Below, one piece after another: positions 10,796 to 21,982 of a stretch of 64,000 nt of DNA. Every line of letters begins with the position of its first letter. Positions within the stretch are counted from its first letter, which is position 1. The position numbers were made by a program, and so were the translations under genes. A model generated the notes under the pieces. It had not been told where the DNA came from. It saw only the letters and a list, made by a program, of their open reading frames with translations, and did not search any database. Source of the DNA: Leucobacter chironomi DSM 19883 (GTDB lineage: Bacteria; Actinomycetota; Actinomycetes; Actinomycetales; Microbacteriaceae); contig NZ_ATXU01000002.1 in assembly GCF_000421845.1 (NCBI RefSeq), positions 186,001 to 250,000 of the forward strand. The letters are read 5' to 3'.

Positions 10796-12028
10796 TCAGG
10801 CCTCGGCGGGCACTTCGCTCGTCGTCTCGGCCACCGGCTGCGGATCCGGCCGGCGCTCGCGCAGCGCGAAGGAGAGGCCGAATCCGACGACGAGCAGCGC
10901 CGCCATGATGACGAAGACGAGCCGCACATCCGAGGCGTCGGCGATCCTGCCGAGCAGCGGGCTCACGACACCGCCGAGCGACAGCGTGAGGCCCAGCGTC
11001 ACCCCGCTCGCGATGCCGATGCGGTTCGGGAGGTAGGAGTGCGAGAGGGTGATCTGCGCCGCGAACGGCAGGAACAGCGCCACTCCCAGCACCGCGGTGG
11101 CGGCGACGACCACGGCTGCGCTTGGGGCGAGCACGATCGCAGCGACCGCGACGGCGGCGATCAGGTAGCCCGCCCGCACCACGCGCAGGCGGCCGAAGCG
11201 GTCGGCCAGCCAGCCGCCGATGAGGGTGCCCGCGGCTCCGGCTGCGGGAAACACCGAGAGGGCGATCGAGGCGAAGGCGGTGCTGACATCGAAACGCTCG
11301 ATGGAGTACAGCGACACGAAGGTGGAGGTGCCCACGTACGCGACCGACCACATGGCGAGCACCACGGTCAAGCGTCCGAAAGCGCCCCAGTCGTCGGACT
11401 GCCGCGGGGTCGTGTGCTCGGAGACCGTCGCCGCGGACGTCGCCGCGGGGCGGGTGAACAGGCGACGCCACGAGACCGCCGCGTAGACGAGGCCCAGCAC
11501 GAGAGCCGGCACGATGAGCAGCGCTGTGCCGGAGAGGCCGAACCAGCCGACGGCCAGGATCACGCCCGCGGGAGCCAGTGCCACGCCGACGTTGCCGCCG
11601 ACCGAGAACAGGCTCATCGCCCGGCTCGTGCCGCGCCCGGCCTCGCGGGCTTCGACCGTGGCGGACGGGTGGTAGGCGGCGACGCCGATGCCCGAGATCG
11701 CCACGGCGATCCACACCAGCGGATAGGAGCCTGCGACGAGCCCGCTGACGGCGATGCCCGCGCCGGCGGCGAGCAGGCCCGCGAGGGTCATCCAGCGCAG
11801 CTGGAAGCGGTCGCTGAGGTAGCCGAAGACGGGTTGTGCGACGCTCGACAGCGCGGTCGCCGCGAGCGTGATCCCCGCGACGGCGGCGTAGCTGTACTGG
11901 GCGTGCAGCACGAAGAACGGCAGCAGGGCGGCGACGGCTCCGGTGTAGAAGTCGTTCGCGACGTGGGTGGCGGTGAGCGTCCAGAGCTGCAGTCGGCTCT
12001 GGGTGCGCGGGGTCGTCATGGCGGGCAT
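10796..12028 (-). CDS. MFS transporter, Fsr-like
   Basis: Major facilitator transporter of 410 aa from the ATG at 12028 (AGAGGA about 4 nt upstream; in-frame GTG at 12052 and ATG at 12016 are alternatives). Twelve hydrophobic segments, the motif-A loop GYLSDRFQLRW after helix 2 and its second-half equivalent GWLADRFGRLR are visible. Overall pattern (HVANDFYTG in helix 1, AAYHPSATVEARE around helix 4-5) is that of the fosmidomycin-resistance (Fsr) subgroup. It is divergent from the GntR/FadR regulator at 12248 with a 219-nt shared gap, so control by that regulator is likely. The natural substrate is unknown. Confidence 0.87.
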   Translation of the reverse strand: MPAMTTPRTQSRLQLWTLTATHVANDFYTGAVAALLPFFVLHAQYSYAAVAGITLAATALSSVAQPVFGYLSDRFQLRWMTLAGLLAAGAGIAVSGLVAGSYPLVWIAVAISGIGVAAYHPSATVEAREAGRGTSRAMSLFSVGGNVGVALAPAGVILAVGWFGLSGTALLIVPALVLGLVYAAVSWRRLFTRPAATSAATVSEHTTPRQSDDWGAFGRLTVVLAMWSVAYVGTSTFVSLYSIERFDVSTAFASIALSVFPAAGAAGTLIGGWLADRFGRLRVVRAGYLIAAVAVAAIVLAPSAAVVVAATAVLGVALFLPFAAQITLSHSYLPNRIGIASGVTLGLTLSLGGVVSPLLGRIADASDVRLVFVIMAALLVVGFGLSFALRERRPDPQPVAETTSEVPAEA

Positions 12029-12247
12029 GGGGTCCTCTCGGAGTCGCGGCACGGCGGATCGGCGCCCGCTCCTCCCCCGGAGGAACTCGAGCGCGGCCGG
12101 GTGCGGCGGCGTGGTGACGGCAGACGGAGGTGCTCCGCAGCAGGGGTGCCGGTCGGGCTAAGGCCTGCTGCGGCGGCGAAGGAGGAGCCGTGCGGTCATG
12201 GGATACACTGTACACGACTTCTCAGACAAGTAGACAGGTAGGGATCC

Positions 12248-12913
12248 ATGGTCCAGATCGTGCGCACCTCCCTGGCCGAGCAGGCCGCGGACATGCTCCT
12301 GGAGCGCGTGCGCGCCGGTGAGTGGGCGCTCGGCTCGAAGCTGCCGGGCGAGCACACCCTCGGTCCGCAGCTCGGCGTCGGACGGTCGACGGTGCGCGAA
12401 GCGATCCGCCGTCTCGCGGGTCAGGGGGTGCTCACCACGCGTCAGGGCGCGGGGGTGTTCGTCGCCGCGCTCGACGTCGTCGAAGACTGGGAGGGGCTGC
12501 TCCGCCGCGCCGACATCGTCGAGGTCATCGAGGCCCGCACCGCCATCGAGGCGGAGGCGGCGTTCCTCGCGGCTGAACGTCGCACCGCGGCGGATCTGCG
12601 CGCGATGCGACGCACCCTGTCCGAGCGCGACACCGCCTCGGGCATCGAGGCCCACGTCGACGCCGACGCCGGATTCCACCGTGCGGTCATCGTGGCCGCC
12701 CACAACTCGGTGCTGCTCGAGATGTTCGACCGCTTCGTGCCGCGGATCCGCGAGGCCATGATCGCGATGCTGCGCATCCGCGGCGACTACGGCGACCCGC
12801 GCGACCAGGACGCGCACGCGGTGATCGTCACGGCAATCGAGGCACAGGACGCCGCCGCTGCCGCATCCCTCGCCCGGGAGCACCTGCGCTCGCTCCGCGA
12901 AGCCATTCGTTGA
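12248..12913 (+). CDS. GntR/FadR-family transcriptional regulator
   Basis: 221-aa regulator. The N-terminal winged helix-turn-helix (LGSKLPGEHTLGPQLGVGRSTVREAIRRLAGQGVL, in pieces around residues 30-65) is the GntR signature. The C-terminal all-helical domain with repeated Asp/His positions (DADAGFHRAVIVAAHNSVL, FVPRIREAM, DAHAVIVTAIE) is an FCD domain that usually binds a metal and a small carboxylate ligand. AGGTAGGG precedes the ATG. It is divergent from the MFS gene and probably controls it and itself. The gap contains the AT-rich words ACTGTACACGA and AGACAAGTAGACA, possible operator material. The ligand is unknown. Confidence 0.9.
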   Translation: MVQIVRTSLAEQAADMLLERVRAGEWALGSKLPGEHTLGPQLGVGRSTVREAIRRLAGQGVLTTRQGAGVFVAALDVVEDWEGLLRRADIVEVIEARTAIEAEAAFLAAERRTAADLRAMRRTLSERDTASGIEAHVDADAGFHRAVIVAAHNSVLLEMFDRFVPRIREAMIAMLRIRGDYGDPRDQDAHAVIVTAIEAQDAAAAASLAREHLRSLREAIR

Positions 12914-12974: not shown

Positions 12975-13382
12975 TCAGCGCGTGGCGTAGAAGGTGACGG
13001 CGGAGGCGGCGGCCACGTTCAGCGAGTCGACGCCGCCCATCATCGGAATCGTGACGCGCCGGTCGAGACGGCGGTCGACGCGGGGCGTGATGCCGTGCCC
13101 CTCGGTGCCGAACACGAGGGCGAGCTTCGGGTGATCCTCGGCGACGAGCTCGTCGAGGGTGATCGCGCCCTCCCCCAGCGTCATCCCCGCGACGACGTAT
13201 CCCGCGTCGGTGAGGGCGTCGAGGCCGGCGGGCCAGCGCTCGAAGCGCGTCCACGGCACCTGGAACACCGTTCCCATCGACACCCGCACCGAACGTCGGT
13301 AGAGCGGATCGGCGCAGTCGGGCGAGACGAGCACCGCGTCGACGCCCAGCGCGGCGGCCGAACGGAACACGGCCCCCACGTT
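12975..13382 (-). pseudogene. Displaced 3' half of trmH (SpoU methyltransferase)
   Basis: This fragment encodes the last ~135 residues of a SpoU/TrmH-type 2'-O-methyltransferase, beginning within motif 1 (NVGAVFRSAAALG) and ending with LVFGTEGHG, IPMMGGVDSLN and FYATR. It has no N-terminal domain, no ribosome-binding site and no start codon in context, so it is probably not translated alone. By eye it is about 80% identical to the C-terminal half of the intact trmH at 21074-21982, ungapped. It is best read as the original 3' end of that host gene, cut off by insertion of the defence island. Joining it to 21578 onward at the shared ACGTT would rebuild the gene in frame. Confidence 0.85.
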
Positions 13383-13390
13383 GATGTGGT
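13378..13390. repeat. Left island junction core (att-like)
   Basis: ACGTTGATGTGGT, inside the displaced trmH fragment. It matches the right junction core at 21573-21585 with two mismatches, and the five bases ACGTT are identical. To its left the sequence is host trmH; to its right homology to trmH stops. Confidence 0.6.
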
Positions 13391-13706
13391 GTCCGGCTAC
13401 GATCGGCTGCAAGGAAACCGCGCCTGACCAGGCACAACGGCATAAGCGCTTATCGCATGAGCAATTGGATAGATCATACCGATAGCGACGACTCTGGCTT
13501 TTGTATCGCAGTGAGTGAGGACGCCGAAGCGCCGAACTGCGATGAGATCGAGACGGCTCCGGCACTTGTCCAGGTGGCGTGCTGACGGGGATGCGGGCGG
13601 TCCTGCAATGTAGATTGGAACGTCGGACACACCGAGCGAGGTGGTGGTTTCGCCGAACGGTGCCACACTGCGAGATCGCCGAGCATTCGAGGAAGGAGGG
13701 GCATTG
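13391..13706. other. Non-coding left end of the island
   Basis: 316 nt without a supported gene between the left junction and the 101-aa ORF. It includes the perfect 12-bp palindrome ATAAGCGCTTAT at 13442-13453, the most AT-rich word here, which could be an operator or recombinase site. A promoter for the small plus-strand ORFs presumably lies here but no clear -35/-10 pair was found. Confidence 0.5.
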
Positions 13707-14012
13707 ATGATCAGCAGCCCGTTCAACACGAGCGCGTCCAACTTCGGCAACGCGGCGATGCAGACGGCCGACGTCCCGTGGGACACTCCTGTGAAGATGC
13801 GGCTGGGAGCCGACGGGCCCGGTGAGACCGGCGCGTACATCGAGGTCAGCACCACTCGTGGATTCGCCAAGCGGATCCCGATCGACGAGGCACGCTTGTC
13901 CGAGTGCCGGCAAGAGCAGGACGGTGCGGCCGGGATCGCGCTGTGCCAGCAACTCGTCGACGACCTGGCCGCGCGGATCAAGACGGCCGTGGCCGAAGCG
14001 GTGCGCGGTTGA
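13707..14012 (+). CDS. Hypothetical protein in island (101 aa)
   Basis: Not recognised. The ATG at 13707 is chosen because GGAGG lies 7 nt upstream; the frame is open to 13641. The protein is small, soluble and mildly acidic, with no signal peptide, no membrane helix and no obvious nucleic-acid motif. Its C-terminal third is helical (QLVDDLAARIKTAVAEAV). Two cysteines are not arranged as a metal site. It runs toward, and converges on, hsdR, and its stop overlaps the start of a still smaller ORF. Candidate roles are an accessory or regulatory gene of the island, or the surviving fragment of a larger mobile element, both guesses. Confidence 0.5.
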   Translation: MISSPFNTSASNFGNAAMQTADVPWDTPVKMRLGADGPGETGAYIEVSTTRGFAKRIPIDEARLSECRQEQDGAAGIALCQQLVDDLAARIKTAVAEAVRG

Positions 14013-14116
14013 ACGGCCAGGCCGAGATGCTCGAACATGCCGCACCCTTGCGTGCCTGGCTGAATGCGCAGATTGTGGCGCGTGAGCGGCTGTGCCGCCA
14101 GCGCCCTTCGTGCTGA
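14009..14116 (+). CDS. Very small ORF after the 101-aa gene
   Basis: 35 codons from a TTG that overlaps the preceding stop (TTGA), or 29 from the ATG at 14027-14029. It ends 3 nt before the convergent hsdR stop. The predicted product is a single amphipathic helix (LRAWLNAQIVARERL). The overlap suggests coupling to the 101-aa gene, but so short a frame may be chance or the truncated head of a lost gene. Confidence 0.25.
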   Translation: MNGQAEMLEHAAPLRAWLNAQIVARERLCRQRPSC

Positions 14117-14118
14117 CC

Positions 14119-17100
14119 TCAGTCCCCAGGCTCCCCACCCCCAGTGGCAAGTCCCCGGAACCGCTCGAAGAACCTGGAGAGCGCTTCGATGACCCGCTTC
14201 TTCTTGTCGCCATGGTTGGACTCGCGGTTGAACCGCGACACGGGTGGCAGGATGCGGGTGATCTCGGTGCCCGCTGTGCGCAGCTGGCCGTCCCGGAACG
14301 CGGCATCCACGAACGACCGCGTCTGCTCCAGCTTGAGCTTGTGCGTTTCGATGAGCTCTTGAAGCTCGGCCTCTCGCTTCGCGGCGATGTACGCCTGCCA
14401 CTGCTCATCGACCGCGCCCTGCAGCGACACCGACTCGACGAAGTCCTCGACGAGGTCGCGCTTGCTGCGCAGGGTCGGGCTCGCGTCGACGGCGCGGGTG
14501 ATCTCGGCGCGGACTTCCTTGTCGTCTCCGTCGCCTTTCTCGGCGCGGAGCTTCTCGACGAGCATGAGGATGTAGTCGACGTTGATCTCGACCTGCTTGA
14601 CGAGTTCGATCTCGAACACGACGTCGTCATTGATGACTTCTCTGCCGCCGTCGCGATCGCGCGTGTACTCGTCGCGTAGCCGCAGGTAGATGCTGGTGTA
14701 GTCCTGCCGCTGTCGCTCGGTGAGCGGATCGTTGCCGTCGAAGTCGTCGAACGATGTGAGGATGTTCTGCAGTCGCAGGATTGCGCCGAACAGCTGGATG
14801 AAGTCCTTCTGCGCCTGCTCCCCCACGATCTGCTGCCCGATCGGGAAGTGCGTGAGCAGTTCGGTGACCTTGTCGACGTACTCGCCGTAGTAGTCGCCGT
14901 ACGGTTTCAGCAGGACGATGCCCCGGGCGTCCTTGTTGCCGAACAGCTCCAGCGCGGCGTTCGTCTCTTCCTCGAGGTCGCGGAAGGCGACGATGTTGCC
15001 GTAGGTCTTCACCGAGTTGAGGATGCGGTTCGTGCGCGAGTACGCCTGGATCAGGCCGTGCGCGCGCAGGTTCTTGTCGACGAACAGCGTGTTCAGCGTC
15101 GTCGCGTCGAAGCCGGTGAGGAACATGTTCACCACGATGACCAGGTCGATCTCGCGGTTCTTCATCCGCTGCGACAGGTCCTTGTAGTAGTTCTGGAACC
15201 GGTCCGCGCTCGTGTCGTAGCTGGTCCCGAACATGTCGTTGTAGTCCTGGATCGCGTCTTCCAGGAACGAGCGCGCGTCACGGTCGAGCGCATCGGTGTC
15301 AAACGCTTCATCATCGAGGATTCCGTCGGCTTCGGCCTCGTTCGCACCGTAGCTGAAGATCAGCCCGATCTTCAGCCGCTTGTCCGGTGGCAGCTGCTCC
15401 ATCTGCAGCTGGAACTGGTTGTAGTAACGGCGTGCGGCGTCGATCGACGCGGTAGCGAACAGCGCGTTGAATCCGCGAACTAGTTTCCGCTCCTTGAGTG
15501 CCTCCGCCTGACGCCGGCCCCGCACCGAGTCGGCGACGTTCGTCACGACTCCGTGCTCGTAGCTGGATGAGCGCTTCGTCTTCTGATCGAAGTGCTCCAG
15601 TGTGTAGGCCACGACGTCCCGGATCCGACGCACGTCCAGGAGAGCCCGCTCACGGTCGATCGCTGACACCTGCGAGTCGTCGGGGTTCCCAACCTTGATG
15701 GTGTTGATGTAGTCGATCCGAAACGGCAGCACGTTCTTGTCCGTGATGGCGTCGACGATCGTGTACGTGTGCAACTTGTCGCCGAACGCCTGCTCGGTCG
15801 TGCGCAGCTGAGGGTTGCCACCGCTGCCGGCGTTCGCGGCGAAGATCGGCGTCCCAGTGAACCCGAACAGGTTGTACCGCTTGAACGCGCGTGTGATGTC
15901 GGTGTGCATGTCGCCGAACTGCGACCGGTGGCACTCATCAAAGATGATCACCGCGTGGCCCGAGAACACCTCGTGGCCCTTGTTCGCCTTGATGAACGTC
16001 GACAACTTCTGGATCGTCGTGATGATGATCCGCGCACCCCGGTCCTCAAGCTGCTTCTTCAATACCGCCGTGGACGTGTTCGAGTTCGCCGCACCCTTCT
16101 CGAACCGGTCGTACTCACGCATCGTCTGGTAGTCGAGGTCCTTGCGATCCACGACGAACAGCACCTTGTCCACACTCGGCATCTTCGATGCGAGCTGCGC
16201 GGCCTTGAACGAAGTGAGCGTCTTGCCTGAGCCGGTGGTGTGCCAGACGTATCCGCCAGCATCGAGTGTGCCGAGCGTCTTGTAGTTCGTCGAGATCTGG
16301 ATCTTCTGCAGGATCCGCTCAGTCGCGACGATCTGGTACGGCCGCATCACCAGCAGGTCCCGATCCGCGGTGAGCACGCAGTACTTCGTCAGGATGTTCA
16401 ACAGCGCGTGCTTCGCGAAGAACGTCTTCACGAACGCCGTCAGCTCGGTGATCGGCTTGTTGCTCGCGTCCGCCCACCAGCTGGTGAACTCGAACGAGTT
16501 ACTCGTCTTCCTGCCCTTGCCAGCACCGCCAGACTTCTTCTGCTCGGCCAAGTGCCGGTTGCGAGTGCTGTTGGAGTAGTACTTCGTCAGCGTGCCGTTG
16601 CTGATCACGAACAGCTGCACGTACTCGAACAGGCCCGAGCCCGCCCAGAAGCTGTCGCGCTGGTACCGGTTGATCTGGTTGAAGGCCTCGCGGATGTCGA
16701 CGCCGCGACGCTTCAGTTCGATGTGCACCATCGGCAGCCCGTTGACGAGCACGGTCACGTCGTAGCGATTGGCGTACTTCGCACCGCCATCGCCGGCAGA
16801 GCTCTCGCCGCGGGCGATCTCGTACTGATTGATGACCTGCAGCCGATTGTTGTGGATGTTCGTCTTGTCGATCAGCGCGATGTTCTTCGTCGTCCCGTCG
16901 TCGCGTCTGAGGATCTGAATGTGATCCTCCTGGACACGCACGGTCTTTTCGACGATGCCGTCGTTGGCACCTGCGATCTTCGTCGTGAAGAACTGCTCCC
17001 ACTCGGCATCCGAGAAAGTGATTCTGTTGACCCTCTCGAGTTGCGCTCGGAGGTTCGCTACCAGCTCCGCCTCCGACGTGATCGGCAGATAGTCGTACGC

Positions 17101-17253
17101 CTGCCCCTCAAGGAGTCGGATCATCTCCTTCTCGAGCCCAGACTCCGACTGATACGCATCAGCCTGCGACGGATCGTGAACATACTCAGCGACAACCGTA
17201 CTCTCCGACGAGACAGCGATCGGATCGTACGTGCGCGCTAGCGCATCGCTCAT
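14119..17253 (-). CDS. hsdR: Type I restriction-modification system, restriction subunit
   Basis: Motor and nuclease subunit of a type I system, 1044 aa. The N-terminal PD-(D/E)xK nuclease shows RYDVTV (Asp165) and HIELK (Glu179, Lys181). The SF2 helicase core has Walker A TTGSGKT at 339-345, the DECH box in IIFDECHRSQFGD, GFTGTP, and motif VI QAYSRTNR. A long helical C-terminus for binding the methylase core follows. Length and motif order match the EcoR124I (type IC) group. The ATG overlaps the hsdS stop by 4 nt, and it is last in hsdM-mrr-hsdS-hsdR. No inactivating change is visible, so the enzyme should cut unmodified DNA after translocation, given HsdM and HsdS. Confidence 0.96.
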   Translation of the reverse strand: MSDALARTYDPIAVSSESTVVAEYVHDPSQADAYQSESGLEKEMIRLLEGQAYDYLPITSEAELVANLRAQLERVNRITFSDAEWEQFFTTKIAGANDGIVEKTVRVQEDHIQILRRDDGTTKNIALIDKTNIHNNRLQVINQYEIARGESSAGDGGAKYANRYDVTVLVNGLPMVHIELKRRGVDIREAFNQINRYQRDSFWAGSGLFEYVQLFVISNGTLTKYYSNSTRNRHLAEQKKSGGAGKGRKTSNSFEFTSWWADASNKPITELTAFVKTFFAKHALLNILTKYCVLTADRDLLVMRPYQIVATERILQKIQISTNYKTLGTLDAGGYVWHTTGSGKTLTSFKAAQLASKMPSVDKVLFVVDRKDLDYQTMREYDRFEKGAANSNTSTAVLKKQLEDRGARIIITTIQKLSTFIKANKGHEVFSGHAVIIFDECHRSQFGDMHTDITRAFKRYNLFGFTGTPIFAANAGSGGNPQLRTTEQAFGDKLHTYTIVDAITDKNVLPFRIDYINTIKVGNPDDSQVSAIDRERALLDVRRIRDVVAYTLEHFDQKTKRSSSYEHGVVTNVADSVRGRRQAEALKERKLVRGFNALFATASIDAARRYYNQFQLQMEQLPPDKRLKIGLIFSYGANEAEADGILDDEAFDTDALDRDARSFLEDAIQDYNDMFGTSYDTSADRFQNYYKDLSQRMKNREIDLVIVVNMFLTGFDATTLNTLFVDKNLRAHGLIQAYSRTNRILNSVKTYGNIVAFRDLEEETNAALELFGNKDARGIVLLKPYGDYYGEYVDKVTELLTHFPIGQQIVGEQAQKDFIQLFGAILRLQNILTSFDDFDGNDPLTERQRQDYTSIYLRLRDEYTRDRDGGREVINDDVVFEIELVKQVEINVDYILMLVEKLRAEKGDGDDKEVRAEITRAVDASPTLRSKRDLVEDFVESVSLQGAVDEQWQAYIAAKREAELQELIETHKLKLEQTRSFVDAAFRDGQLRTAGTEITRILPPVSRFNRESNHGDKKKRVIEALSRFFERFRGLATGGGEPGD

Positions 17254-18488
17254 GCCGTCCGCTCCTTGAACGTCAGAAGCCGGTCACGATAATGCTCGTA
17301 CTGCTTGCGACGGGCAGCGAGCTCGGCCGGGAGACCGATACTGAGGTCGTTGACGAGGGCGTCAAATTCATCGAGCGCCGCAGCGATTCTCCGCTGCTCC
17401 GTCAAGCTGGGAAGCGGCACCTTCCAGGCGAAGAAAGACTTGGAGGAGACCGCCGCCATTGACCCATCCGTACGGACACACTGCTCTCGGATACGTTCAC
17501 TGTCCGCTCGGAGGACCTGGTACGCATAGCGAGCGTCCACGCCATCACCGACCACCAACGCGCGAATGTCTTGGTTGACCGTCGTATCGACATCAACAAA
17601 GCCGACAGGCAAAGTACGCCGCAGGATATTAGACCGCATCACCACCGGAATCGACGGGGCGGATACCACCTTCAGAGAGGTCTCCTGTATTGCTCGTGCA
17701 GTGACGCGCCCGCGAATCTCGTTCGTTGACTCATCACTCACATCCATGGAAGCAAGCCATGGGATATCCCCACCGTCCCAGTACGCCGCATTCTGCTTCG
17801 AGGGAGTCATGCCGCCAAGCCAGGAGCCGAGGTCGGCGAGACTCATGCGGGGCGCATCCACCTGGTCAAGCATCGCCTGCCGATAGTGGGTGTACTGGGC
17901 GCGCCGCGCTTCCAGCTCCGCTTCCAGCTCCGCTTCCAGCTCCGCTTCCAACTGGGTGAACTTATCCAATACTTGCACGATCTCGCGCTGGACCTCGAGA
18001 GGCGGCACCGGGATTCGGACAGTTGCCATCTGCTTTGCAGACACGTCGACAACCTTCGTGCCAGTCGCGAGTTTCCGCTTCTGTACGTAGAAGTCCGCCG
18101 AAGCAAACCAATACGCGAGGTACTTCGGCTCCTGATCGTGTTTGATCACCGTGGCGTGGCCACCGGTCACGATCGTCGCATCACCAAGCCAAGCCACTGC
18201 CTTGCCGACGTCGTCGATGTTCTCACTGGTGTTCGTAATGAGGATGTCGCCCGGGTCAGCCTTCGCGAGCTTTGCAGCTTTCTCTGGCGTTACATACGAC
18301 AGTGTCTCAGTCGCCCACACCCCGTAGCGGGTGTAGATCTGACCGTAGTGAATGGCACCGACACCGTACTCGACGAGGTCAGTCTTCGGCATGCCGTTTC
18401 CACGCACCAATGTCGCGAACTCTCCGAGCGGCATTCGCTCCACCCCATCTGGGCAAAGTTCCTGGATCAGGTCATCAATGCGGCTCAT
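17250..18488 (-). CDS. hsdS: Type I restriction-modification system, specificity subunit
   Basis: Specificity subunit, 412 aa, with two target-recognition domains (roughly residues 1-160 and 215-370), each followed by a conserved helical spacer (PPLEVQREIVQVLDKF and LTEQRRIAAALDEFDAL). Both halves end in an RR-x-QYxHYR-type helix (RRAQYTHYRQAML, RRKQYEHYRDRLL), the internal symmetry typical of HsdS. The central spacer carries tandem LEAE repeats at about 180-195, encoded by a 12-bp DNA repeat. In the EcoR124 family, gain or loss of one four-residue repeat changes the non-specific spacer length of the target, so this gene may switch specificity. It overlaps mrr upstream and hsdR downstream by 4 nt each. 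Confidence 0.95.
   Translation of the reverse strand: MSRIDDLIQELCPDGVERMPLGEFATLVRGNGMPKTDLVEYGVGAIHYGQIYTRYGVWATETLSYVTPEKAAKLAKADPGDILITNTSENIDDVGKAVAWLGDATIVTGGHATVIKHDQEPKYLAYWFASADFYVQKRKLATGTKVVDVSAKQMATVRIPVPPLEVQREIVQVLDKFTQLEAELEAELEAELEARRAQYTHYRQAMLDQVDAPRMSLADLGSWLGGMTPSKQNAAYWDGGDIPWLASMDVSDESTNEIRGRVTARAIQETSLKVVSAPSIPVVMRSNILRRTLPVGFVDVDTTVNQDIRALVVGDGVDARYAYQVLRADSERIREQCVRTDGSMAAVSSKSFFAWKVPLPSLTEQRRIAAALDEFDALVNDLSIGLPAELAARRKQYEHYRDRLLTFKERTA
17908..17943. repeat. 12-bp tandem repeat in hsdS (3 perfect units)
   Basis: Three exact copies of GCTTCCAGCTCC, then a degenerate fourth (17944-17955). On the coding strand each unit adds four residues (LEAE) to the central helical spacer of HsdS. 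Because 12 is a multiple of 3, copy-number change keeps the frame. Confidence 0.9.
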
Positions 18489-19411
18489 GCGAAGAAGTCC
18501 TCGTCGATCTCTATGACCTTGTAGGTCTCTTTCACTTGCACGCCGACGCCGTACCGGATCATGAGGCTGGTGAGGCGCTTGCCGTCGATCAGGATGATGC
18601 GGGTCGGCACATTCTCGGCGTAGGTACGCGCGCCGTCGGAGAACCGGCTGGTCGTGATGAAGACGCCGCTGTCGGCCTTGCCGCTGAGTGCTCCAACGAA
18701 CGCCTGGAGGTCGGGGCGTCCGACAGTGTTGCCGTCTTGGTAACGCTTGGCCTGGATGTAGACGCGGTTGAGGCCGAGGATGTCCTGGTCGATGACACCG
18801 TCTATGCCTCCGTCGTTGCTGAGCTGGGTGACGCTGCCGGCCCCGGTGGTGCCGCCGTAGCCCATTGACAGCAGGAGATCGACAACCGCCTGCTCGAAGA
18901 AGCCTGGTTCTTTGTCCTGCAGCCGAGTGAGCAGCTCGACCGCGATCTCGTCGTGGATTCGCTCGACGCCGCTCTGCACCTGCTCGGTAGGAGTCATCGA
19001 CGACTCTTCAGTCGGAGCGGTCGTTGCAGACTCGCTCGTCTTGCGGGTCGTGGTCGCCACGTACTCGCGGATCGGCGAGCTGGGATCTGCTCCGAGCGCC
19101 TTGATGTCACGTTCCTTGGCACCATTCGGAAACAGCTCGATGAGCTGCTTGCCGGCATCAGTGATCTGGTAGTGACCACGCTTTGGACGTCTGAGCGCGC
19201 CGACGTTCGTCAAGAACGAGACACCCCAGCCGATGCGGTTCTCATACTTGAGCGCGCTCCCGGACGGAAGCATCTCCTTCCTCTGCTCATCGGTGAGCTG
19301 CGCCTGATCAGCTACGAGAGGCTGAAACTCGCGCCAGTGGCGGATGATGCCATCGCTCATCACCTTGAGCGTCGGGATCATGAAGCCTTCCCAGTTGGGC
19401 ATGTCCGTCAT
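18485..19411 (-). CDS. Mrr-type restriction endonuclease within the hsd operon
   Basis: 308 aa. The N-terminal ~100 residues look like the winged-helix Mrr_N domain (SDGIIRHWREF, GWGVSFLTNVGALRRPKRGHYQIT), then a Ser/Thr-rich linker (about 120-145), then an Mrr catalytic domain with an upstream acidic residue (FFEQAV, Glu173), Asp204 in GGIDG and Gln220-Ala-Lys222 in YIQAKRY, the PD-(D/E)xK variant of this family. Mrr enzymes usually cut methylated DNA, so a role inside a type I operon is unusual. Its ends overlap hsdM and hsdS by 4 nt, so it is made with them. It may act as a methylation-dependent second line or as an accessory to the type I complex; neither is shown. Confidence 0.9.
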   Translation of the reverse strand: MTDMPNWEGFMIPTLKVMSDGIIRHWREFQPLVADQAQLTDEQRKEMLPSGSALKYENRIGWGVSFLTNVGALRRPKRGHYQITDAGKQLIELFPNGAKERDIKALGADPSSPIREYVATTTRKTSESATTAPTEESSMTPTEQVQSGVERIHDEIAVELLTRLQDKEPGFFEQAVVDLLLSMGYGGTTGAGSVTQLSNDGGIDGVIDQDILGLNRVYIQAKRYQDGNTVGRPDLQAFVGALSGKADSGVFITTSRFSDGARTYAENVPTRIILIDGKRLTSLMIRYGVGVQVKETYKVIEIDEDFFA

Positions 19412-20979
19412 GACCGCGCGCCCTCCAGATCCGCCACGATCTCGTCGATCGCCGTGCGGAGCTCAGCCTGGCGCGCCACGATGCGCGCGATCTCGGCGTT
19501 CAGCTCCGTGATGTCGACTTCCTCGCGAGTGTCCTCGGCCTCGACATACGACGACACCGCAATGTTGTAGTCGTTGGCGGCGATGTCCTCGTTGCTGACG
19601 ACGGTGGTGAAGTAGTCTTCAGGCTCGCGCGCCGTGAACGCTCCGAGGATCCTCGCCTGGTGCCCCTCGAGCAGCTTGTTCTTGTTGCCGACGCGCTTGA
19701 ACTCGGCCGACGCGTCAATGAACAGCACGTCGCTGGTCTTCTTCGACTTCTTCAGCACGAGGATGCAGGTCGCAATCGTCGTGCCGAAGAACAGGTCCGG
19801 CGGCAACTGGATCACGGCGTCGACGTAGTTGTTGTCGATGAGGTACTGGCGGATCTTCTTCTCCGCTCCCCCGCGGTACAGCACGCCGGGGAACTCAACG
19901 ATCGCGGCCGTGCCGTTGACGGCCAGCCAGCTGAGCATGTGCATCGTGAAGGCCAAGTCAGCCTTCGACTTCGGCGCGAGGACACCGGCCGGGGAGAACC
20001 GCTCGTCGTTGATCAGGAGCGGGTTCGCATCGCCCTCCCACTTGATCGAGTAGGGCGGGTTGGACACGATCGCCTCGAACGGCTCATCATCCCAGTGCGC
20101 CGGATCGATCAGCGTGTCGCCGTGCGCGAGGTTGAAGTCCGCGTAGTTAACGTCGTGCAGGAACATGTTGATCCGCGCGAGATTGTACGTGGTCAGATTG
20201 ATCTCCTGACCGTAGAAGCCCTGGCGGACGTTGTTCTTGCCGAGCACCTTGTCGAACTTCAGCAGCAGCGACCCGGAGCCCACCGCCGGGTCGTAGACCT
20301 TGTTGACCTGCTTCTTGCCGACCACCGTGATGCGCGCCAGCAGCTCCGAGACCTCCTGCGGCGTGTAGTACTCACCACCGGACTTGCCTGCGTTGGCCGC
20401 ATACATCTGCATCAGGTACTCGTAGGCGTCACCGAACAGGTCGATCGAGTTGTCCTCCCACCGCCCCAGCGGCAGGTCGCCGATCGCGTCGAGCAGCTTC
20501 ACCAGCTTCTGATTGCGCTTGGCGACCGTCGAGCCCAACTTGTTGCTGTTGACATCCAGATCATCGAACAGACCCTTGATGTCGTCCTCACTGTCTGTAC
20601 CCAGCGCCGACGCCTCGATGTTCTTGAAGACCCGCTCGAGCGTCTCGTTGAGATTCTCGTCGCCCGCGGCACGATCGCGCACATTGGCGAACAAGTCGGA
20701 CGGCAGGATATAGAACCCCTTCTCCGCGACAACCTCGTCGCGCGCGAACTCCGCGTCAGAATCCGCCGCCAGCCGGTAGTCGAACGACACCTCGCCCGCA
20801 TCGTGCTCGTTCTTGTTGAGGTACGCCGTGAGGTTCTCGGAAATGAAGCGATAGAAGAGCATTCCCAGCACGTAGGACTTGAAGTCCCACCCATCGACGC
20901 TGCCGCGCAGGTCATTGGCGATGCGCCAGATCGTCTTGTGCAACTCTGCTCGCTGCGCCTCTTTGGTCGTCGGTGCCAT
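19408..20979 (-). CDS. hsdM: Type I restriction-modification system, methyltransferase subunit
   Basis: Adenine-N6 methyltransferase subunit, 523 aa. The ATG at 20979 is preferred over an in-frame start at 21012 because GGAGGA lies 9 nt upstream. A helical HsdM_N domain (about 10-170) precedes the SAM-binding motif DPAVGSG (230-236) and the catalytic NPPY (307-310). The first motif has Val where many HsdM have Cys. It is the first gene of the island operon. Its promoter must lie within the ~95 nt between it and the trmH stop, which holds the AT-rich TATTACGATATCG. With HsdS it protects host DNA, so placing it first ensures modification precedes restriction. Confidence 0.96.
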   Translation of the reverse strand: MAPTTKEAQRAELHKTIWRIANDLRGSVDGWDFKSYVLGMLFYRFISENLTAYLNKNEHDAGEVSFDYRLAADSDAEFARDEVVAEKGFYILPSDLFANVRDRAAGDENLNETLERVFKNIEASALGTDSEDDIKGLFDDLDVNSNKLGSTVAKRNQKLVKLLDAIGDLPLGRWEDNSIDLFGDAYEYLMQMYAANAGKSGGEYYTPQEVSELLARITVVGKKQVNKVYDPAVGSGSLLLKFDKVLGKNNVRQGFYGQEINLTTYNLARINMFLHDVNYADFNLAHGDTLIDPAHWDDEPFEAIVSNPPYSIKWEGDANPLLINDERFSPAGVLAPKSKADLAFTMHMLSWLAVNGTAAIVEFPGVLYRGGAEKKIRQYLIDNNYVDAVIQLPPDLFFGTTIATCILVLKKSKKTSDVLFIDASAEFKRVGNKNKLLEGHQARILGAFTAREPEDYFTTVVSNEDIAANDYNIAVSSYVEAEDTREEVDITELNAEIARIVARQAELRTAIDEIVADLEGARS

Positions 20980-21073
20980 GGGTCGTGCTCCTCCGCGCCA
21001 CTGCGCAATCACGGTGTTGGGTTGTTTGCTATTACGATATCGGGTGCCACTGACACTCGGGCTTCCCGCATCA

Positions 21074-21982
21074 TCACCGCGTCGCGTAGAACGCCACGGC
21101 GGCGGCTGCCGTCACGTTCAACGAGTCGACTCCGCCCATCATCGGGATCGTGACCCGGCGGTCGAGCAGTGCGTCCGTCTCCGCGGTGATGCCGTGGCCT
21201 TCGGTGCCGAACACGAGAGCGAGCTTCTCGTGATCTTCGGCCACCAGCTCGTCGAGGGTGATCGCGCCTTCCCCCAACGTCATGCCGGCCAGGACATAGC
21301 CAGCCGCCTTGAGCTCCGCAATGCCCTTTGTCCAATCGGGGATCCGTGTCCACGGCACTTGGAAGACCGTGCCCATCGAGACCCGTACCGAGCGCCGGTA
21401 CAGCGGGTCAGCGCAGGTCGGAGACACCAGCACCGCATCGAGGCCCAAGGCGGCTGCATTACGGAAGGCGCTGCCGACGTTGGTATGGTCAACGAGCCCC
21501 TCCAGCACCGCGATCCGACTGCGTCTGCGAGGCTCGGCGGCGGGTTCCGGATCGGCTAGTTTGGGACCACACACGTTCGTGTGGTCGGTGAGGCCCTCCA
21601 GTACCGCGACACGGGAGCGGGGCTGCGCCGACGTTGCGGGTGCGCGCAGCAGCTCGGCCGGGTCGAGCAGCGTCGGCCGGTGCATCGAGGCGAGCGCGCC
21701 GCGGTGCATGTGGAAGCCGGTGAGCGCTTCGAGCTGCTGCGACTCCCCCACGAAGACGGGCACGTCCGGGTGGTCGGCGAGCAGCGGCTCCACCCGGGGC
21801 AGCCACTCTTCGAGCAGCAGCACCGAGCGCGGGCGGTGGCCGGCCCGCAGCGCCCGCTCGATCACCTTCGGCGACTCGGCGAGGTACAGGCCCTCCTCGG
21901 GTTCGAGCACCCGCCGCAGCGCGACGTCGGTCAGCCGGGTGTAGTCGGCGAGCTCGGGCGCCGCGAGGTCGTCGATGCGCAT
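21074..21982 (-). CDS. TrmH/SpoU RNA 2'-O-methyltransferase, chimeric
   Basis: 302-aa RNA ribose methyltransferase of the SpoU (SPOUT) family. The host-derived N-terminal half (1-137) carries the substrate-binding domain and reads ...SRVAVLEGLTDHTNV. After it come 17 foreign residues and then a second copy, SRIAVLEGLVDHTNV (155-169), leading into a full SPOUT domain with NVGSAFRNAAALG, LVFGTEGHG (256-264) and IPMMGGVDSLN. The chimera thus has 32 extra residues (96 nt, in frame) at the start of the catalytic domain. All three SPOUT motifs are intact, so activity is likely. The substrate (tRNA or rRNA) is not determined. The hydrolase stop lies 5 nt upstream. Confidence 0.9.
   Translation of the reverse strand: MRIDDLAAPELADYTRLTDVALRRVLEPEEGLYLAESPKVIERALRAGHRPRSVLLLEEWLPRVEPLLADHPDVPVFVGESQQLEALTGFHMHRGALASMHRPTLLDPAELLRAPATSAQPRSRVAVLEGLTDHTNVCGPKLADPEPAAEPRRRSRIAVLEGLVDHTNVGSAFRNAAALGLDAVLVSPTCADPLYRRSVRVSMGTVFQVPWTRIPDWTKGIAELKAAGYVLAGMTLGEGAITLDELVAEDHEKLALVFGTEGHGITAETDALLDRRVTIPMMGGVDSLNVTAAAAVAFYATR
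21566..21585. repeat. Right island junction: inverted repeat around the core
   Basis: ACCACACACGTTCGTGTGGT: perfect 7-bp arms ACCACAC (21566-21572) and GTGTGGT (21579-21585) around ACGTTC. The right arm is host trmH, the left arm is island sequence. The arrangement looks like a recombinase-binding site formed at the junction. A further related copy of the core, ACGTTGGTATGGT, lies at 21477-21489 in the island-borne trmH half. Confidence 0.6.

Follow-up and report, generated by a model that had tools for sequence, protein, structure and literature searches.

An island that very probably replaces the catalytic half of a TrmH-family methyltransferase gene at a conserved motif in Leucobacter chironomi and other actinobacteria

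What becomes of a housekeeping gene when a mobile island enters its most conserved part? This question is raised by a stretch of 64,000 nucleotides from Leucobacter chironomi DSM 19883 (contig NZ_ATXU01000002.1, positions 186,001 to 250,000; hereafter the window), in which a gene of the TrmH family of methyltransferases has been entered by an 8.2-kb island at a 6-bp core, AACGTG, within the codons of a DHTNV motif. We conclude with high confidence that the island is a site-specific integrative element that replaces the catalytic half of the gene. The features on which the argument turns, in window coordinates, are:

21572..21982, minus strand: host N-terminal half (N-half) of the TrmH-family gene, 137 codons, ending in DHTNV
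21572..21577, minus strand: left junction core AACGTG, with an identity step against two other genera
21560..21568, minus strand: left element arm GGTCCCAAA, with G..C.AAA conserved in eight element types
21527..21571, minus strand: element-borne linker of 15 codons; model confidence is low at residues 118-139
21074..21526, minus strand: element-borne SPOUT domain (PF00588) with its own motif copy and stop, 100% identical in genome G356 (genus g73) and 99% in G157 (genus g85)
13377..13382, minus strand: right junction core AACGTG, with an identity step against two other genera
12975..13382, minus strand: SPOUT half displaced from the previous gene, also a member of the clade of element-borne halves

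The minus-strand gene starts at 21982, and its first 137 codons, 85% identical to those of a Leucobacter relative, end in ...RSRVAVLEGLTDHTNV at 21572. From this host N-half the reading frame continues via CGPKLADPEPAAEPR into RRSRIAVLEGLVDHTNVGSAFRN... and then through a complete SPOUT domain to 21074. The distal SPOUT half, which begins at NVGAVFRS (13382) directly behind ...HHINV, ends at 12975 and lacks an N-half. A preliminary description of the locus had proposed that the host gene is cut after its N-half and that the island, bringing a SPOUT domain about 80% identical to the distal half, lies between the two halves; the junctions, their shared core and the identity steps confirm this arrangement, and the two halves are 81% identical over 137 amino acids. 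The in-frame fusion that it described also stands, but it is not seamless: the linker and the duplication of a strand and motif (RSRVAVLEGLTDHTNV and RSRIAVLEGLVDHTNV) had been missed. The 14-base pattern around the core, ACCACANNAACGTG, searched with up to one mismatch, occurs only at the two junctions in the 64 kb, against 0.14 occurrences expected, and the G+C content is 58-64% across the restriction genes of the island and mostly 64-74% outside.

The same island, with the same ends and a displaced half at its far end, is present in G356 and G157, whose hosts have N-halves 55-62% identical to that of the window. Comparison of the window with these two genomes in 50-base bins places the ends of the island exactly. 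At the left end DNA identity rises from 48-90% ahead of the core to 98-100% in several bins beyond it; at the right end it drops from 98-100% ahead of the core to 60-88% beyond it; and bins that straddle a core show 84-90%. The element-type half is found in five of 54 congeneric genomes (that of the window, G033, G039, G048 and G051; G033 is taken here to be Leucobacter sp. wl10, NZ_KZ984008.1), while 48 carry a C-terminal half (C-half) only 53-58% identical to the element half of the window, at coordinates that adjoin an N-half; the remaining, incomplete genome (G045) gave weak matches only. The uninterrupted gene was inspected in detail in two relatives (G022 and G049), and the intact, unrelated second copy that the preliminary description had named as a sign of simple paralogy was not seen in relatives. 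Further TrmH-family genes in these genomes match near E 1e-15. Across the family, eight of 398 genomes have a C-half scoring above 240 bits against that of the window, and among 28 genomes of genera g73, g85, g20 and g21 an element-type half lies behind a linker in G356, G157, G303 and G073 and without one in G343, the other 23 having native-type halves only. In one relative (G016:C1:1899313-1900094) the two halves of the gene lie in different open frames, perhaps because of a frameshift or a misassembly.

Other islands are inserted at this motif in Leucobacter sp. wl10, Citricoccus, Glutamicibacter, Brevibacterium, Pseudarthrobacter, Sinomonas and genus g20 (G303). The integration hotspot suggested earlier is supported, and both the uninterrupted sites and the alternative cargo between the same two halves for which a search had been proposed are found, together with the same island in other genera. 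In wl10 the chimeric gene is on one contig and a native-type half (90% identical to the genus type) on another, and we infer that the two contigs join. Twelve named genomes, taken from 79 loci, were checked for a displaced half: it is full-length or nearly so in six (Citricoccus CH26A, Glutamicibacter nicotianae, Brevibacterium CCUG 69071, Pseudarthrobacter siccitolerans, Sinomonas mesophila, where it contains one stop, and wl10), a fragment in two (Jiangella asiatica and a Dermabacter metagenome-assembled genome) and not found in four. With the window, G356, G157 and G303, displaced halves are thereby known from ten genomes of nine genera. Sinomonas and Pseudarthrobacter carry tandem pairs of elements, in which the second half is attached to the right end of the first element and not to an N-half. 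At the tandem loci L190, L191 and L192 the SPOUT halves are identical within each genome, and a similar oxidoreductase-like gene lies near a right end.

The cargo of these islands, called defense cargo in the preliminary description, is partly defensive. The island of G303 holds two hsdM genes, hsdS, hsdR and a PDC-S15-like gene behind a 66-residue linker, with a displaced half; PADLOC assigns type I restriction-modification to the G303 and Glutamicibacter islands, and AbiL-like and ATPase-type genes to that of Brevibacterium. The description of the cargo as defense holds for these three and the window type; the element of wl10 and that of Citricoccus (L186 and L187; 36.5 kb with large genes) are not classed as defense.

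Trees of the two halves were built by a quick method from hand-picked rows of the fetched loci (82 for the C-half, 69 for the N-half); the halves are short, and 30 of 76 inner branches in the C-half tree and 30 of 66 in the N-half tree are left open. All halves identified as element-borne in bacteria form one clade in the C-half tree (30 rows; Shimodaira-Hasegawa-like approximate likelihood ratio test (SH-aLRT) 99). The clade includes halves of genes for which no displaced half was found, for example from Arthrobacter, Micropruina, Brachybacterium, Microbacterium elymi and Leucobacter G039, G048 and G051; these halves may be native forms or the scars of old insertions. Displaced halves of wl10 and Brevibacterium cluster with their own genus with support (100), those of G356 and G303 fall in a supported set (99) made up of rows from g73 and g20, and the Pseudarthrobacter half is nearest the rows of its own family, without such support. 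In the N-half tree the window, wl10, G039 and G051 belong to a Leucobacter set (SH-aLRT 98), G303 to a set of nine rows (97) with g20 rows nearest, and Brevibacterium to its own genus (100); G157 and Sinomonas are nearest their own genus without support, G356 is equidistant from g21 and g73 rows, and G073 is not resolved. This tree held no same-genus rows for Citricoccus, Glutamicibacter or Jiangella. To the question which half tracks the relatives, the sequences answer that N-halves follow the genus where the tree can tell, and that the element halves are one clade across genera.

The structure model of the chimeric protein has a mean predicted local distance difference test (pLDDT) score of 86.4. 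Residues 118-139, which include the host copy of the strand and motif, score below 50, whereas it is the element copy that forms strand one of the SPOUT domain (155-160). The Pfam domain and the fold are both those of TrmH-family RNA 2'-O-methyltransferases, and the best solved structures, which match over nearly the full length, include RlmR of Thermus, AviRb and YsgA. These fold matches point to an rRNA 2'-O-methyltransferase-like member of the TrmH family as the target, so that the family given in the preliminary description stands and the exact name trmH is loose. The element halves of the window and G157 differ at 16 nucleotides, 13 of the changes synonymous and three non-synonymous, and those of G356 and G157 by 11 synonymous and three non-synonymous changes; the comparison with G157 is consistent with constraint on the element half, while the window and G356 (two synonymous and two non-synonymous changes) are too close to tell. 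The structure model and the small number of differences together suggest that the chimera likely keeps its function.

The left arms of the elements share a pattern. After the core, the left arm shows G..C.AAA at a fixed spacing in eight element types, with five invariant positions, and the linker beyond it varies; part of this likeness may be due to descent. Right arms bear a modest resemblance to inverted left arms, the arrangement expected around a short core at an attachment site of a large serine integrase: across the eight types the best dyad score is 52 against a mean of 39.8 for shuffled arms, a score reached by six of 5000 shuffles. In wl10 a large serine integrase of 596 amino acids lies at the right end, its gene starting 70 bases from the junction with the native-type half. 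A similar association is seen in the Streptomyces phages Kamino and Sitrop, where a SPOUT half without an N-half and with a second motif copy is divergent from a serine integrase; Kamino's half starts with AACAACGTGGGCGCG after two codons (codons for NNVGA). Of 37 phage records with a match, L232 and four unverified fecal scaffolds were also examined; these were dropped as phage-borne halves, as they encode both halves. A tyrosine recombinase, suggested by an inverted repeat at the left junction, was considered and dropped after the wl10 serine integrase was found and a search for tyrosine integrases in 11 genomes placed no match inside the islands of the window, G356 and G157.

In G303, Glutamicibacter and Brevibacterium a resolvase homologue lies 145-201 bases from the right core and points away from it. 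With these three as queries, 93 of 396 genomes of the order match at E 1e-12; 30 loci were kept, of which the three best (233-336 bits; families f7, f12 and f18, which may include those of the named genera) adjoin a SPOUT half and the other 27 do not. Proteins were inspected at 15 of the 30 loci. The homologues beside a displaced half are:

L074:10462-11130, L123:19703-20371, L188:2370-2951 and loci L198-L200: six resolvase homologues without the catalytic serine, each beside a displaced SPOUT half

The catalytic serine of RVST and the DRLGR motif of serine resolvases are absent from all six, the serine position being glycine in four and threonine in two; PF00239 matched both of the serine-less homologues that were scanned. 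The eight next-best matches (L201-L208) retain both motifs. Because all six proteins beside a SPOUT half lack the motifs and the next eight keep both, the serine-less branch is tied to this site.

We propose the following model for the entry of these islands. A circular form with a SPOUT half just past its attachment site would recombine at the AACGT core inside the DHTNV codons of the chromosomal gene, and this single crossover would leave the host N-half, linker and element SPOUT half at one end and the previous 3' half at the other. The host copy of the strand and motif would turn into part of a flexible linker, the catalytic domain would remain complete, and the gene should still function after insertion. 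The crossover would be carried out by a serine integrase, since one is encoded at the right end of the wl10 element and beside the SPOUT half in Kamino and Sitrop; this enzyme is likely for wl10 and is inferred for the other elements. The window island would have been moved by such an integrase in trans, for which we put the chances at about even, or would have lost its own. Exact junctions with a shared core, an uninterrupted site in relatives and in-frame replacement of the 3' part are the marks of a gene-reconstituting integrative element and are all present; an integrase encoded by the element is present in wl10 and absent from the window island. The latter thus acts like an integrative element, though perhaps not an autonomous one.

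A number of observations weigh against this interpretation. Neither Pfam analysis of the five larger genes' neighborhood and a small open reading frame nor six-frame comparison with the wl10 integrase and the small resolvase homologue revealed an integrase in the window island, and searches for the resolvase family in 12 genomes and for tyrosine integrases in 11 gave no match inside the islands of the window, G356 and G157; the one other resolvase-family gene of the window genome is 127 kb away. The wl10-type integrase is itself rare: none was found at E 1e-60 in 398 family genomes, a negative that carries no weight without a known positive; 396 order genomes gave three distant matches at 33%, none beside a SPOUT half; viral contigs gave no match, the best phage match is 37%, and plasmid matches are distant only. 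The window's own arms give a weak signal, with three of 17 matches at the shared offset and ten of 17 one base away, and the length of the linker varies between 15 residues in the window and 66 in G303. Nor do all displaced halves group with their own kin: those of the window and G157 are sisters (96) inside the element clade, the Sinomonas half, also in this clade, shares 98% identity with the element half of the same genome, and the Glutamicibacter and Citricoccus halves form long, unplaced branches. Because its displaced half belongs to the element clade, the window shows a second-generation insertion, in which the gene entered already held an element-type half. The half at 12975-13382 is hence a displaced 3' half, as first described, but not the original one, the native type being that of the 48 genomes above.

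Among the alternatives, the one that fares best, although we consider it unlikely, is that the islands are what is left of Kamino-like prophages after loss of the phage genes and can no longer move. The SPOUT half beside a serine integrase in Kamino and Sitrop and the integrase-less window island would fit such an origin, but Kamino's half falls outside the element clade, its integrase shares only 23% identity with the wl10 enzyme over 211 amino acids, we noticed no gene for a phage structural protein among those of the window island, and the island is almost identical, with the same ends, in three genera, which points to movement without an integrase gene or to its loss before the spread. Somewhat less probable still is homologous recombination, in which no site-specific recombinase is involved and one crossover in the conserved motif brings in a circle or plasmid bearing a segment of a related methyltransferase gene. 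The window island has no recombinase, and relatives such as Leucobacter G051 (among others) have an element-type half with neither linker nor displaced half, as homologous exchange could give; yet the identity steps fall at the same core in three genera despite the divergence of their N-halves, exchange within a shared stretch is not expected to yield a linker and a duplicated motif, the left arm is conserved where the linker beyond it is not, and wl10 has an integrase at its right end. Simple paralogy, with two related methyltransferase genes flanking a restriction island by chance, could appeal to the further TrmH-family genes of these genomes but is hardly credible, as the distal copy lacks an N-half and begins at the core, the same split recurs with other cargo in other genera, and relatives have one uninterrupted gene at that place.

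Site-specific integration with replacement of the catalytic half is thus the reading we retain, and it may be extended, tentatively and with less than even confidence, to a picture in which the islands are integrase-less, site-specific carriers of defense genes whose ends are recognized by a serine integrase in trans, helped or controlled by the dead resolvase homologue at the right junction, and in which each insertion swaps the catalytic domain of the host enzyme. If this were true, the cell would depend for its RNA methylation on a domain encoded by the element, and only exact excision could remove the element without breaking the gene.

There are precedents for elements that restore the coding gene they enter. 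Staphylococcal cassette chromosome (SCC) elements integrate at rlmH, an RNA-methyltransferase gene, at its very 3' end, and elements at icd replace the 3' part of an enzyme gene without a linker. The rebuilding of a protein-coding gene, which the preliminary description likened to integration into tRNA genes, is not new in itself. Bifidobacterium prophages are reported to integrate likewise inside a conserved protein-coding gene of an actinobacterium, dnaJ2, which is reconstructed (PMC6109161); there a tyrosine integrase acts at the 3' end of the gene with attachment (att) sites of 35 bp, whereas the window island enters mid-gene, carries defense cargo, and supplies a linker, a duplicated strand and the entire catalytic domain. 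In Mycobacterium abscessus the prophage site attB-29 likewise lies in a methyltransferase gene, the SpoU-like tRNA methyltransferase gene MAB_3702; it is at the sixth codon, and the authors call reconstitution of expression unclear (PMC10654092). Kamino and Sitrop differ in being whole phages, and the available text of their paper names no integration site (PMC11536984). We found no report of the present site in the literature searched, which covered few subscription papers, and it is not named in the accessible parts of PMC6109161, PMC10654092, PMC11536984 and PMC10656467. What sets the system apart is the mid-gene site in a conserved motif, the linker and duplicated strand, the single clade formed by halves from many genera, and integrase-less islands.

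These results point to an integration site common to many actinobacterial genera, which islands enter repeatedly, in tandem and across genera, with the frame kept. A SPOUT half without an N-half, starting at NVG, makes such islands, several of them with defense genes, simple to find, and the chimeras amount to a series of naturally occurring domain swaps in an RNA methyltransferase. They also raise a testable question, namely what integrates elements that have only a serine-less resolvase homologue or no recombinase.

The remaining genes of the window island are:

19408..21012, minus strand: hsdM, type I methyltransferase (Pfam)
18485..19411, minus strand: mrr-type restriction endonuclease (Mrr_N, Mrr_cat)
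17250..18488, minus strand: hsdS, specificity subunit, its variable part differing among the three island copies
14119..17253, minus strand: hsdR, type I restriction subunit (Pfam)
13641..14012, plus strand: small open reading frame, kept open in all three island copies, without a Pfam family and not called a recombinase

This cargo matches the families of type I restriction-modification systems with an Mrr-type gene, and the carrier is the sole unusual feature that we noticed relative to such systems. The variable part of hsdS is not the same across the three otherwise similar islands (window, L072 and L073), and in G356 a transposase-like gene (L072:4680-5720) separates mrr from hsdS. Between window positions 13382-21577 and L072 and L073 the island ends are 98-100% identical between genera and the hsdR stretches about 73-98%; judged from these sequences, it looks as if the ends had been exchanged more recently than the hsdR stretches.

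Two neighboring regions deserve mention. In Leucobacter G051 (L039:10217-17978) the element-type half is followed by a biosynthesis-like cluster with adenylate-forming, epimerase, glycosyltransferase and P450-like genes, and no displaced half was found there. In the window, a FadR-type regulator and a transporter resembling the major facilitator superfamily (10796-12913) lie between the displaced half and a PAP2-like gene; because the phosphatase-like gene directly follows the native half or cargo in wl10 and G051, these two genes may be older cargo.

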